DNA of 64,000 bases from Ancylomarina subtilis (GTDB lineage Bacteria > Bacteroidota > Bacteroidia > Bacteroidales > Marinifilaceae), in contig NZ_SHKN01000001.1 of assembly GCF_004217115.1 (NCBI RefSeq), positions 1,367,781-1,431,780 on the forward strand, in the 5' to 3' direction. A program made the translations under genes and the position numbers. The first letter of the stretch is position 1; every line of letters begins with the position of its first letter. Below, one piece after another: positions 25,041-45,738 of this stretch. Below the pieces are notes generated by a model. That model was not told the DNA's origin. It saw only the letters and a program-made list of their open reading frames with translations, and made no database searches.

Positions 25041-25129
25041 TACATAAAATTAGAATGGGAAGCAGAAAAGAAGACATAACTTCTCAGTTATGATCTCGTT
25101 ACTCAACTCCCGAAGTTACGAATAAAAAT

Positions 25130-25335
25130 AAATTGAGGCAGGTCTTCTGGCTTATCCATTCAAACCCCTTCCCATTTCCTCAAATCAACTGAGATTGAAA
25201 TAGTGGTTATATTGTTTGAACATACAATTCGAAAAATCGAACAGGACTTACAGCTGCGGGAACAGCTCCGGCTTTAAACCGGATTCCCTTTTAATTCCTT
25301 GCATAAGGAAACCTATTTGCTGCAAAGCTATGCAA
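25130..25335 (-). ncRNA. Cobalamin (adenosylcobalamin) riboswitch
   Basis: Read on the minus strand, all landmarks of the cobalamin aptamer appear in order: TTAAAAGGGAATCCGG, the paired GCCGG, CTGTTCCCGCAGCTGTAA, and near the 3' end the B12 box AGCCAGAAGACCTGCC (25152-25137). The aptamer ends about 90 bases before the btuF start. No strong terminator hairpin with a T run follows, so control is probably translational. B12 binding would lower expression of the importer. Confidence 0.95.
25323..25330 (-). promoter_or_regulatory. -7 element of the riboswitch transcript
   Basis: TAGCTTTG on the minus strand matches TAnnTTTG and would start transcription right at the 5' edge of the aptamer. A partial -33 (CTTG) lies 22 bases upstream. 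Confidence 0.55.
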
Positions 25336-35483: not shown

Positions 35484-35496
35484 AATTTTGCTTTTT

Positions 35497-38400
35497 TTAG
35501 AATCCTAATTTTAAATTAAACCCATACGTTCTGGTGTTTGGAATAAATCCACCTTCAATACCTTGTACGTTACCAGAACCACCGACTGAAGTTTCAGGAT
35601 CAAATCCTTTTTTATCCAATCCACCAGTCCATAAGTTCTTTCCATAAACTGACACTTTTAGTGATCTTAGAGGACCAATTTTTGCCTTAGGAAAAGTATA
35701 GCCTAAAGTAACCTCTCTTAATTTGATGTAATCTGCATCAAACATATTCTGAGCACTAGGAGTTCCATAAGCATGGTAGACTCTGTGAGAATAACCTTGT
35801 CCGCTAACGTACTTGTTATTTTCTGCTGTATTAGTTACTGTGTAGTTTCCATCAGCATCATAAGTTACAGTTCCGGTAACACCACCTAGGTTAATACCAC
35901 CACCATTAGCTACAGACTCTCTGATACTAACACCTTTATCATTATCAGCAGCAGACGCTTCAAGCATACCTGAGTACATCCCCCACATATGAGTTAAAGA
36001 AAACCATTTACCACCTTTTTGTACATCAACTAAGAAACTGAAGTCAAAATTCTTATATGTTAAAGAGTTACGGATACCGATATTGTAATCAGGTAACACA
36101 GATCCTATAGGCACTAGATTATCAGTAGCTAGATAATAACCATTGTCATCAACAACTTTATTCCCAGCATTATCATAAATATAATCATATCCCCAAAGCA
36201 TACCGTAAGTATCACCTACACCTGCTCTTAAATATGCGCCACTAAAAGGAGCTCTTTGAATATCAATAGCCTTAATATCTTTATAGAGCTCAGTTAGTTT
36301 ATTATCAATTTTTGAATAATTCAAATTAATATCCCATGAAAAATTATTAATTTGAACAGGAGTCGCATGCAAAGAAATCTCAATCCCTTTATTCTCCATT
36401 TCACCAGCATTAATATACTTACTTGAATAACCTGCTGCCTTAGAAACCTCTAAAGGTATGATCTGATCCGTTGTAACATTCTTGAAATAAGTCATATCAA
36501 AACCAAATCGGTTCTGCAAAAAGTTCATTTCTAAACCAATTTCATACGAAGTCGTTGTTTCTGACTTCAACTCTGAATTCAAGAAATCTTCATTAGTATT
36601 GGTTCTAGGAGCTCCTCCAAATGGACCATCAGCATTGTATTCAAATGTGTTTACAACTCGATAAGGATCAGTATCGTTACCAACTTGAGCCCAACCCAAT
36701 CTTAATTTACCATAATCCATCCAAGTTGCATCAAATAGTTCTGAAAACACAAAACTTGATGAAATTGAAGGGTAGAAATAGGAATTTTCATTCTCTGGCA
36801 AAGTAGAAGACCAGTCATTACGTGCTGTTACATCAACAAATAAGAAATTCTTAAATCCAAATGATGCACTAGCAAATACAGAATTAGTTTTCTTTACAGA
36901 ATGGAAATCATTAATTGAAACATTTCCCATTGAATTCATTAAATTGTAAATACCCGGTACCACAAGGCCACCAGAAGTTTCACCTCTCAACAAGTTAAAT
37001 TTGTTTCGACGGGCATTCGCACCAACCATAGCAGTAATGTTATAGTCTTCATTAAAACGCTTATTAAAATTCAAAGTAAATTCATAATTGAACTCTGAAT
37101 TATTACGTTTTGCTTCATAATAGCGAGAAGTTGACTGAGATCCAACAGCAGTACGCTCACGAATATCAAATGCATATGTATCACCATAAACACTTGCCTT
37201 AGCAACCAATCCCTTCATGATTTCATAATCAATAGAAACATTCCCGAAGAAACGATCACGCTCGTCATCATTAAAATTCTCATTGATGATCCAATATGCA
37301 TTATCAGCATATTTAGGAGTACCATTACTATACGATTTACGGTTCCAAGTTCTTTGAGTACCGTCATTATTCTTGTACTTACTCAATCGTTTCATATCCA
37401 ATTGACGCTGTCCCCACTGGAAGAACTTTTGAGAAAATGAATTATCATCATATCCAAAAGTTGGACGTCCTGAAGTTTCTGAGCGCACATAATTAATAGA
37501 TGCCTTCGCATTGAATTTATCTAAAAATTTGGTATTCCCTGTGATAGCAAAATTATGCTTATCATATTCAGACGTAGGCACAATACCTTCAGTATGTGTA
37601 TTTGTATATGAAAATCTCACTCCATATTCTTTACCAGTACGTGCTACCGCTACAGAATTCACATACGAAACACCTGTATCAAAGAAATCTTTCACATCAT
37701 TCTTAGGTGCAACCCAAGCACGTGGCTTTAAATAGTCATTAGGAAAACTCTCTTTATCAAAGGCATCCCAATGTAAAACTTTAATACTTGGATCGTAAGC
37801 TGGTCCCCAAGATTCATCTACAGCATATTGAGGAACCAAATAGTTGTTACCTTCGATAGTTACTTGCTCAAATCCATTAACACCACCGTCTTCATCATCT
37901 ATAATAGCACCACCACCATATCTTCTCTGTAATGCTGGTAAATCACCTATTTTCTCAATAGAAATTGAAGAACTGAAGTCAACTTTAATGTCATCTTTTC
38001 CAGCTTTCGCATTTTTAGTATTTATAATAATAACACCATTGGCAGCACGTGAACCATAAATCGCAGCAGCAGCTCCCTTAAGCACGGACATATTCTCGAT
38101 ATCATCAGGGTTGATATCGTTCATCATATTACCGTAGTCAACTCCACCAAAACCAGCTTGAGCATTGGCCGAGTTAAAGTTAGAGTTATCCATAGGAATA
38201 CCATCAACTACAATCAAAGGTTGATTTTCACCAAAAATAGAGTTGGCACCACGAATCAAAATACGTTTTGATCCTGCAAAATTAGAAGAAGCAGATACCT
38301 GTACACCAGAAACCTTACCTGACAATGCAGAAAGGGCATCTGATTGTTGCACCTGATTTAAATCATCAGCACCAACTTCCTGAACAGCATAACCAAGAGC

Positions 38401-38751
38401 TTTCTTCTCTCTTGTTACACCCAATGCAGTAACTACAACCTCATCCATACCAATAGATTCAGTTTCAAGAACTACATTAACTACAGTCTTATTACCAACT
38501 GTAATTTCTTGAGTTACCATACCTACAAAACTAAAAACAAGAACATCACTTGCTGAAGCTTCAAGGCTGTATTTTCCGTCAATATCAGTACTAGCACCAA
38601 TAGTGGTACCTTTGACAACAACAGATACACCAGGCATTCCTAGCCCGTCATCAGCACTTGTCACAGTACCGGAGATTTGCTTGCTTTGCGCAGTCACTAT
38701 TTGGGTTCCCACTAAAAGTAGAAAGACAAATAGTCCAATAATTTTTTTCAT
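35497..38751 (-). CDS. SusC/RagA-family TonB-linked outer-membrane receptor
   Basis: 1084 residues. After a signal peptide come a carboxypeptidase-regulatory-like domain (GLGMPGVSVVVKGTTIGAST), the family signature ending in LGVTREKKALGYAVQEV, a plug domain with IRGANSIFGENQPLIVVDGI, and a large beta barrel ending in phenylalanine (NLKLGF), which suits outer-membrane assembly. It imports nutrients captured by the SusD partner 13 bp downstream, powered by TonB. The 510-bp upstream region carries a striking TTAAC array. Confidence 0.95.
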   Translation of the reverse strand: MKKIIGLFVFLLLVGTQIVTAQSKQISGTVTSADDGLGMPGVSVVVKGTTIGASTDIDGKYSLEASASDVLVFSFVGMVTQEITVGNKTVVNVVLETESIGMDEVVVTALGVTREKKALGYAVQEVGADDLNQVQQSDALSALSGKVSGVQVSASSNFAGSKRILIRGANSIFGENQPLIVVDGIPMDNSNFNSANAQAGFGGVDYGNMMNDINPDDIENMSVLKGAAAAIYGSRAANGVIIINTKNAKAGKDDIKVDFSSSISIEKIGDLPALQRRYGGGAIIDDEDGGVNGFEQVTIEGNNYLVPQYAVDESWGPAYDPSIKVLHWDAFDKESFPNDYLKPRAWVAPKNDVKDFFDTGVSYVNSVAVARTGKEYGVRFSYTNTHTEGIVPTSEYDKHNFAITGNTKFLDKFNAKASINYVRSETSGRPTFGYDDNSFSQKFFQWGQRQLDMKRLSKYKNNDGTQRTWNRKSYSNGTPKYADNAYWIINENFNDDERDRFFGNVSIDYEIMKGLVAKASVYGDTYAFDIRERTAVGSQSTSRYYEAKRNNSEFNYEFTLNFNKRFNEDYNITAMVGANARRNKFNLLRGETSGGLVVPGIYNLMNSMGNVSINDFHSVKKTNSVFASASFGFKNFLFVDVTARNDWSSTLPENENSYFYPSISSSFVFSELFDATWMDYGKLRLGWAQVGNDTDPYRVVNTFEYNADGPFGGAPRTNTNEDFLNSELKSETTTSYEIGLEMNFLQNRFGFDMTYFKNVTTDQIIPLEVSKAAGYSSKYINAGEMENKGIEISLHATPVQINNFSWDINLNYSKIDNKLTELYKDIKAIDIQRAPFSGAYLRAGVGDTYGMLWGYDYIYDNAGNKVVDDNGYYLATDNLVPIGSVLPDYNIGIRNSLTYKNFDFSFLVDVQKGGKWFSLTHMWGMYSGMLEASAADNDKGVSIRESVANGGGINLGGVTGTVTYDADGNYTVTNTAENNKYVSGQGYSHRVYHAYGTPSAQNMFDADYIKLREVTLGYTFPKAKIGPLRSLKVSVYGKNLWTGGLDKKGFDPETSVGGSGNVQGIEGGFIPNTRTYGFNLKLGF

Positions 38752-44346: not shown

Positions 44347-44401
44347 TTAACCTTCTTTAACTTAGTTTTTTTTTACAAAATTAATTTAAGCCGTATGTTT
44401 G
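44347..44401 (+). promoter_or_regulatory. Promoter/operator of small RNA 1
   Basis: TTAAC starts at 44347 and 44357 (10-bp spacing); positions 44367 and 44377, where the other copies have a third and fourth element, are degenerate. The -7 element TATGTTTG is at 44394-44401, at the same distance as in the other copies. Confidence 0.7.
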
Positions 44402-44405
44402 TAAT

Positions 44406-44525
44406 AGTAAAACAAAATTGATTTCTCAAGATCAATTCTAGACTCTGAATCACATGAGTTTAGTCGTTTTCATAGGTTAGATTTAGGTTAGTAAGAAAAA
44501 CTCAGGTGGGGACCTGAGTTTTTTT
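44406..44525 (+). ncRNA. Tandem small RNA gene, copy 1
   Basis: About 120 nt from the predicted start to the end of its terminator. Hairpin A pairs AATTGAT with ATCAATT; hairpin B pairs CTAGACTC with GAGTTTAG (one wobble). The linker TTTTCATAGGTTAGATTTAG is shared with copy 2 and nearly identical in 3 and 4. The terminator is AACTCAGGT-GGGG-ACCTGAGTT plus T run (44499-44525). No conserved reading frame. The hairpin sequences differ from other copies while pairing is kept, which supports a structured RNA. This is the most diverged copy. Confidence 0.8.
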
Positions 44526-44613
44526 CGTTTATAGTAGTCTCATTTTAGAGCTCTACTCATACGATTTCACTTGTATTTCCTGAATGCGTTATTCTATTCA
44601 AAAAAAGGAACCC

Positions 44614-44668
44614 TTAACTTTCTTTAACTTGTATTGACTCCCATTAACTAAAGAAAGCTCTATGTTTG
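44614..44668 (+). promoter_or_regulatory. Promoter/operator of small RNA 2
   Basis: TTAAC, TTAAC, TTGAC and TTAAC begin at 44614, 44624, 44634 and 44644, exactly 10 bp apart. The -7 element TATGTTTG is at 44661-44668. A perfect 9-bp inverted repeat CTTTCTTTA/TAAAGAAAG brackets the last three units. Confidence 0.75.
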
Positions 44669-44672
44669 CAAT

Positions 44673-44790
44673 GTAGAAACACAACTAATTTTTTCATAAT
44701 TAGGCTAAGCTCTACTCCATAAAGCTTAGCAGTTTTTCATAGGTTAGATTTAGGTTAGTAAGAAAACTCAGGTGGGGACCTGAGTTTTTT
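44673..44790 (+). ncRNA. Tandem small RNA gene, copy 2
   Basis: About 118 nt. Hairpin A pairs CTAATT with AATTAG; hairpin B pairs GCTAAGCT with AGCTTAGC around a loop containing CTCCATAA. Linker and terminator (44765-44790) match the other copies, with one or two fewer A before the stem. No ATG-initiated frame is shared with the other copies. Confidence 0.85.
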
Positions 44791-44890
44791 CATTTCCCCC
44801 TATTCCATTTATATATCATTCCAGCCTACAGCCATAAATGAGTTTTCTAAAACACGATATTATCGCTCAAAACACCTATAAATTTAGTGC

Positions 44891-44945
44891 TTAACGTTCT
44901 TTAACTTGTGTTGACTCCCATTAACTAAAGAAAGCGCTATGTTTG
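44891..44945 (+). promoter_or_regulatory. Promoter/operator of small RNA 3
   Basis: TTAAC, TTAAC, TTGAC and TTAAC start at 44891, 44901, 44911 and 44921, a strict 10-bp phase, followed by the -7 element TATGTTTG at 44938-44945. Confidence 0.75.
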
Positions 44946-44949
44946 TAGT

Positions 44950-45074
44950 GTTGAAACAAACTAACAATCCAAAGTTAGTTCTAAGCTTTAATCCAAAACA
45001 AGCTTAGTCAATTTTTTCATAGATTAGATTTAGGTTAGTAAGAAAAAACTCAGGTGGGGACCTGAGTTTTTTTT
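44950..45074 (+). ncRNA. Tandem small RNA gene, copy 3
   Basis: About 125 nt. Hairpin A pairs AACTAAC with GTTAGTT around AATCCAAA; hairpin B pairs CTAAGCTT with AAGCTTAG around a loop with ATCCAAAA. The linker (CATAGATTAGATTTAGG, then TTAGTAAG) precedes the terminator at 45047-45074. The 5' arm ACTAAC of hairpin A could instead pair with GTTAGT in the linker, a possible alternative fold. Confidence 0.85.
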
Positions 45075-45176
45075 CGTTTATCCCATTCGCACTCTCTACA
45101 TCTTTTAATCAACAGGATTATTTTAGACCGGAAAACACACTTCTTTTCAATCTTAACATCAATAAAAAATAAAAGC

Positions 45177-45231
45177 TTAACGTTCTTTAACTTGCGTTGA
45201 CTCCCATTAACTAAAGAAAGCCCTACGTTTG
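45177..45231 (+). promoter_or_regulatory. Promoter/operator of small RNA 4
   Basis: TTAAC, TTAAC, TTGAC and TTAAC start at 45177, 45187, 45197 and 45207 (10-bp phase). The -7 element is TACGTTTG at 45224-45231. Confidence 0.75.
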
Positions 45232-45235
45232 TAGT

Positions 45236-45355
45236 GTTGAAACGAACTAACAATCCAAAGTTAGTTTCAGGCTTATTCCAAAAGAGCCTGTCAATTTTTT
45301 CATAGATTAGATTTAGGTTAGTAAGAAAAACTCAGGTGGGGACCTGAGTTTTTTT
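45236..45355 (+). ncRNA. Tandem small RNA gene, copy 4
   Basis: About 120 nt. Hairpin A is identical to copy 3; hairpin B has a different sequence, CAGGCT paired with AGCCTG around TATTCCAAAAG, so stem B has changed on both arms together. The linker is identical to copy 3 and the terminator lies at 45329-45355. Copies 3 and 4 are the closest pair, consistent with the most recent duplication. Confidence 0.85.
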
Positions 45356-45484
45356 CGTTTTAAATAAAATCGAATCTTAAGCTAAAAATAATTTAGCTCT
45401 CCCTAAACTGAATGTTTAAATATTAACACAATGGTGAAATTTAAAATTAATTGTGAAAATATTTTTTACTTATCTAATTTTTCT

Positions 45485-45512: not shown

Positions 45513-45590
45513 ATGAACGCTAATTTTTCATTTATATATAAACAGATAAAACGCAATAAACACTATTGTGTTTCATTCGACGTAGAATAA
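45513..45590 (+). CDS. Leader peptide of the lysine operon attenuator
   Basis: A 25-residue frame from ATG at 45513 to TAA at 45590, starting MNANFS and containing YKQIKRNKHY, with three lysine codons within seven. It is followed after 21 bases by a strong terminator hairpin, and the gene behind is aspartate kinase. Shortage of charged lysine tRNA should stall the ribosome at these codons. The Lys content is modest compared with classic leaders, so lysine sensing is likely but not certain. Confidence 0.7.
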   Translation: MNANFSFIYKQIKRNKHYCVSFDVE

Positions 45591-45643
45591 TGTGAAGCTT
45601 TCAAAAAGATAAAAAGCCTACAGATATTCTGCAGGCTTTTTTT
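45591..45643 (+). promoter_or_regulatory. Attenuator of lysC-lysA
   Basis: The terminator AAAGCCT-CAGA/TCTG-AGGCTTT (one A-C mismatch) with a T run lies at 45612-45643. Just after the leader stop, TGTGAAGCTTT (45591-45601) can pair with AAAGC and ACA in the terminator's 5' arm (45613-45622), a candidate antiterminator. Confidence 0.75.
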
Positions 45644-45738
45644 GTGTTTGCATCTTGAAAATTAAGTTTGATTTTAAGGAAACCATAAATAAACCAGCCT
45701 TAAAATTAAATTCATCTAACTATTACCAAACAAAAACC

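Follow-up and report, generated by a model that had tools for sequence, protein, structure and literature searches.

Four tandem genes for predicted FopS-related small RNAs, with SusC porin genes as candidate targets, in Ancylomarina subtilis

Four tandem units lying between an avidin-like gene and lysC in Ancylomarina subtilis (Marinifilaceae; 4.0-Mb genome) are likely paralogous genes for trans-acting small RNAs (sRNAs) of a divergent FopS kind. Each would have its own promoter and terminator and be driven by an activator, its seed would pair across the susC start codon and lower several SusC porins, and the copies would add dosage. Computed for this reading were the units and their folds, their conservation, their likeness to the FopS seed, the complementarity of the targets together with its co-variation with the seed, and the phasing of the promoters.

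Organization and conservation of the array

The array occupies 44347-45355 (+) of the window, the 64,000-nucleotide stretch of DNA analyzed here. An earlier note had described a fourfold unit between the two flanking genes, and this is real: with units starting at 44347, 44614, 44891, and 45177, the intervals of 267, 277, and 286 given there hold exactly. Within each unit the order is a phased TTAAC array (its first two repeats alone in unit 1), 12 nt of spacer, a TAnnTTTG box (present in all four, as described), two variable 5' hairpins, the linker, and the terminator with its T run. With sRNA starts placed about 6 nt past the -7 box, the predicted RNAs of units 1-4 measure about 119, 117, 124, and 119 nt, in keeping with the body of roughly 120 nt proposed earlier. 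The near-identical terminator, AACTCAGGT-GGGG-ACCTGAGTT plus T run, was likewise recovered in 4/4 units by direct alignment; a strict terminator scan listed two of the four, with three on both strands versus 0.5 expected in shuffles. Folding of all four RNAs beat dinucleotide shuffles (z -2.7 to -3.8). Terminator aside, the linker TTTTCATAGRTTAGATTTAGGTTAGTAAG is the best-conserved part of the units, and the arms of the two hairpins 5' of it differ between units yet still pair. No reading frame shared by the four units was seen, again in agreement with the note. Conservation already begins upstream of the promoter, in the form of TTAAC repeats with a 10-bp period. The features are as follows.

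44347-44363, +: unit 1 upstream element, TTAAC twice at a 10-bp period (TTAACCTTCTTTAACTT), with repeats three and four absent
44394-44401, +: unit 1 -7 box, TATGTTTG
44407-44525, +: unit 1 predicted sRNA, from its putative start; RF04319 at 44463-44528, 32.7 bits
44416-44437 and 44438-44463, +: unit 1 hairpins, with seed linker 44467-44495 and terminator plus T run 44499-44525
44614-44648, +: unit 2 upstream element, four 10-bp-phased repeats, TTAAC-N5-TTAAC-N5-TTGAC-N5-TTAAC
44661-44668, +: unit 2 -7 box, TATGTTTG
44674-44790, +: unit 2 predicted sRNA; RF04319 at 44730-44794, 31.7 bits
44685-44703 and 44704-44730, +: unit 2 hairpins, with seed linker 44734-44762 and terminator 44765-44790
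44891-44925, +: unit 3 upstream element, four 10-bp-phased repeats
44938-44945, +: unit 3 -7 box, TATGTTTG
44951-45074, +: unit 3 predicted sRNA; RF04319 at 45007-45078, 34.0 bits
44959-44980 and 44981-45007, +: unit 3 hairpins, with seed linker 45014-45042 and terminator 45047-45074
45177-45211, +: unit 4 upstream element, four 10-bp-phased repeats
45224-45231, +: unit 4 -7 box, TACGTTTG
45237-45355, +: unit 4 predicted sRNA; RF04319 at 45290-45358, 33.7 bits
45244-45267 and 45268-45290, +: unit 4 hairpins, with seed linker 45297-45325 and terminator 45329-45355

No further copies were found elsewhere in the genome, these four being the only ones, and there was no plasmid match. Unit 1 (44407-44525), with two repeats only and hairpins unlike those of the others, represents a subclass apart; this subclass is kept beside the avidin-like gene in several Ancylomarina genomes (L005, L006, L038, L054), some of which have unit 1 alone.

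The homologs anticipated in related genomes exist, relatives carrying 1 to about 15 copies, many of these in tandem. The avidin-sRNA-lysC gene order is common to Ancylomarina species, with 1 to 4 sRNA copies, and arrays in other genera sit at many unrelated places. Nearly invariant over seven genera, the linker of ~30 nt is the one long stretch conserved between genera; the terminators there have completely different sequences and still form hairpins. Exact linker matches in the named collection came only from Ancylomarina, Marinifilum, Labilibaculum, and Marinifilaceae records. The two hairpins are kept in 31/33 Ancylomarina-type units despite 15 and 24 distinct sequences, and in the second hairpin four base pairs have changes on both sides. 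In many Ancylomarina units the loop of the first hairpin is UUUUUUCAU, which duplicates the anti-start-codon motif, and in most the loop of the second carries CUCCAAA or a near variant; both loops are present in the window units and in L007, L008, and L049. Marinifilum and Labilibaculum units lack both hairpins, and their seed follows close behind the promoter, as in FopS. The fold z-scores, hairpin retention, promoter geometry, and synteny support the earlier prediction of four paralogous, separately transcribed regulatory RNA genes.

Relation to FopS and other RNA families

The suggestion that no named Bacteroidota family applies proved wrong, since the R1' seed found in the units is that of FopS (RF04319). 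FopS is a 14-member paralogous sRNA family of Bacteroides thetaiotaomicron that is bile-salt responsive, blocks translation of SusC-like porins via pairing near the start codon, and is bound and antagonized by the RRM protein RbpB (PMC11697453). At the gathering threshold, Rfam gave no match in the array region. At a lax threshold, RF04319 matched 4/4 units along the full length of the model, with scores of 31.7-34.0 bits (E 0.006-0.018 when searching this stretch) that lie under the gathering score of 56 bits. Other Marinifilaceae units scored at most 34.5 bits, against 77-80 for true FopS loci. The aligned core is the R1' seed, lying in the single-stranded linker of 4/4 units with single-base indels only.

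The units resemble FopS in this seed, in being multicopy, in presenting the seed single stranded before the terminator hairpin, and in having the susC start region as predicted target. They differ in that their seed is without one A (AGG for AAGG) and without one base after CATAG. FopS RNAs measure ~65-70 nt, with the seed at the 5' end and one terminator hairpin, whereas those described here are ~120 nt long, with two hairpins before the seed; they are also encoded in tandem arrays with repeats that abut the promoter in fixed phase. FopS has RbpB as partner, whereas no RRM/RbpB protein was found in the A. subtilis genome. The units appear to work like FopS, and the seed is probably shared by descent. 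Because they differ in gathering score, RNA architecture, and RbpB partner, all of which were compared, the units should not be filed as members of RF04319 and are better regarded as a divergent FopS-related branch.

GibS of B. thetaiotaomicron has the seed part R1 in common with FopS and is set apart by a second seed, R2, and by other targets (PMC11697453); a scan of the window up to E 10 gave no match to the GibS model (RF04182). Weak matches to bglG-cis-reg, JA03, BTnc231, and MicC lay far below the cut-offs and were set aside. The Rfam scan returned no sequence relation to Qrr, LhrC, or OmrA/OmrB. These families of other phyla also comprise paralogous copies with their own promoters, and OmrA/OmrB also act on outer-membrane receptors; the likeness is one of logic and function only. 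Elsewhere in the window, a cobalamin riboswitch (RF00174) was found at 25120-25331 (-) with 91.8 bits.

Of the 393 genomes in the order, 69 had the seed pattern, and these carried 21 different family labels; a reversed-seed control had no match among the listed genomes. NCBI places Ancylomarina in the Marinifilaceae, Marinilabiliales, and the genome collection used puts it in one order with FopS-bearing genomes. FopS conservation was reported within the Bacteroidaceae, from a strict BLAST search; the range of the seed is wider and reaches marine Marinifilaceae.

FopS-type seeds also occurred in 43 viral-collection contigs (IMG/VR, L067-L109) and in Bacteroides phage BX-TP2 (PQ571285.1:44811-44848). 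On one of these contigs (L068:3818-3922, -), the seed starts a few bases after a tRNA-Arg, as if released from the tRNA trailer. SusC-like proteins can serve as phage receptors, and phage copies of the seed might therefore, speculatively, lower receptor levels.

Predicted pairing with SusC start regions

The genome holds 22 full SusC genes. A search for near-perfect sites, allowing <=3 mismatches in a 22-nt stretch that takes in the start codon, hit nothing beyond the sRNA genes and a single further location; as such sites are almost confined to the sRNA genes, any pairing would be imperfect, and duplex energy between the linker and the region -45 to +25 around each start was used instead. SusC starts averaged -16.5 kcal/mol versus -10.2 for 297 control genes, taken from 20 scattered 20-kb stretches with simple first-ATG calls as starts (p 1.5e-8, the SusC leaders sharing descent and not being independent samples). 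Energies of <= -16 kcal/mol were reached by 15/22 SusC and 17/297 control genes, the difference remained against control genes likewise starting MK (p 5e-6), and the mean z versus shuffled seeds was -2.8 for SusC and -0.4 for window genes. In most SusC genes the predicted pairing covers the start codon. The window contains the following predicted target.

35494-38751, -: SusC/RagA-type porin gene, 1085 aa; start region predicted to pair with the seed at -21.1 kcal/mol

For the L118 SusC, the likely true start lies 36 nt past the first ATG, and the leader there (CTAACCTAAATCTGATG) pairs at -23.4 kcal/mol. Two SusC genes (L125, L132) had no fit to the seed at all. The best-pairing control gene (L191, minus strand, frame from 9119; -21.3 kcal/mol) encodes a lipoprotein that by eye is glycerophosphodiester phosphodiesterase-like, a possible non-SusC target.

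In a reciprocal test, SusC leaders of the window genome and of G013 favored the Marinifilaceae seed, by 3.4 kcal/mol in the former and 4.9 kcal/mol in the latter, and leaders of the FopS-type genome G340 favored the FopS seed weakly, by 1.2 kcal/mol (p 0.04), these leaders again being related by descent rather than independent. The seed thus seems to have changed in step with the susC leaders. This is evidence from evolution that pairing with susC is the selected function, and the strongest argument for it, with that caveat, is the reciprocal test.

From these features we infer that transcription of each unit starts at a promoter of its own, stops at the unit's intrinsic terminator, and is probably driven by an activator binding the TTAAC repeats, in 10-bp phase, that lie directly upstream of the -7 box. 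The exposed linker (UUUUUUCAUAGRUUAGAUUUAGGUUAGUAAG) would be antisense to the susC-type mRNA leader and start (CTAACCTAAATCT...ATGAAAAA); by pairing over the start codon it would block ribosome entry and lower several SusC porins at once, and the copies may add dosage. As the seed fits the starts of sugar-uptake porin genes, the units probably switch SusC porins off.

Phased promoter repeats and the distribution of RRM proteins

Across 86 units, the distance from TTAAC to the -7 box is exactly 32 nt without exception; in 79 of them TTARC precedes the box by exactly 12 nt, and in 23 an additional TTAAC is found at 42 nt. Among 30 sampled FopS-type loci, 12 had TTAA pairs at exactly 10 bp upstream, with 0.8 expected and other spacings at <=2. 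The fixed promoter geometry suggests a dedicated activator, and phased direct repeats replacing a -33 element resemble the sites of OmpR/PhoB-type regulators, so that a response regulator of this type would be the expected candidate. This rigid element offers a concrete handle on the regulator; a literature search returned no regulator named with such repeats, and the FopS study suspects a regulator not yet known (PMC11697453). Because the four-repeat TTAAC array was found only at units 2-4, and a two-repeat half site at 2 mismatches was no commoner than its control, no wider regulon can be called.

The RRM_1 domain was not found in the window genome, the control Bacteroides ihuae being positive, nor in any of 26 genomes of the seven sRNA-bearing genera (0/26). 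Of the family's other 33 genomes, 29 were positive, including G443, which alone among the 33 had an sRNA match, a typical FopS at 78 bits whose locus may be foreign. The seven genera may form one clade, and the RRM absence may thus be a single event. RbpB is not needed to keep these sRNAs, since a clade without RRM proteins retains them, which makes that clade a natural test of RbpB's purpose. More tentatively, and as a possibility we hold with less than even confidence, the RRM-less Marinifilaceae clade may run an RbpB-independent FopS circuit. Tandem arrays would there be driven by a dedicated activator reading 10-bp-phased TTAAC, the looser repeats upstream of Bacteroides-type fopS would mark the regulator suspected there, and the two-hairpin 5' domain of Ancylomarina would take over a role of the protein partner.

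Alternative readings

The likeness to FopS could be convergent, two unrelated sRNA families having independently acquired a sequence antisense to the conserved SusC start region. The seed is shaped by its targets, and the differences in terminators, 5' domains, and arrangement, together with the sub-cut-off RF04319 scores, would suit such an origin; however, the likeness runs through the entire 26-nt core with single-base indels only, both groups are multicopy with a terminator close behind the seed and TTAA pairs at 10-bp spacing upstream, and Marinifilum-type units, free of the extra hairpins, look like FopS. We consider convergence unlikely. The units might instead be sRNAs that pair with susC leaders and act mainly through activation, sponging of RNAs, or titration of an RNA-binding protein via their loops (UUUUUUCAU, CUCCAAA). 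The extra-hairpin loops are indeed conserved in Ancylomarina and have no counterpart in FopS, but in most SusC genes the predicted pairing runs across the start codon, the site of FopS repression (PMC11697453), and a main effect other than start-codon masking seems quite improbable.

Two further readings were set aside. The position of the units before lysC on the same strand, here and in related genomes, would fit attenuators or leaders acting in cis on the lysC operon downstream, yet this reading is very improbable: every unit comes with a promoter-like box and a terminator, a hairpin belonging to lysC itself lies nearer to that gene (45602-45650), and the arrays of other genera are scattered over unrelated sites. 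It is scarcely credible that the signal belongs to the other strand as short peptides beginning ATGAAAAA and encoded opposite the linker. Read on the minus strand, the linker does give CTATGAAAAA, but promoter and terminator orientation favor the plus strand; direct reading showed these frames to differ in length and sequence between units, because the variable hairpin region comes next.

Downstream of the array, a possible lysC attenuator was noted by eye at window positions 45515-45650 (+), in which a leader frame of 25 codons (MNANFSFIYKQIKRNKHYCVSFDVE) precedes a terminator-like hairpin (I7).
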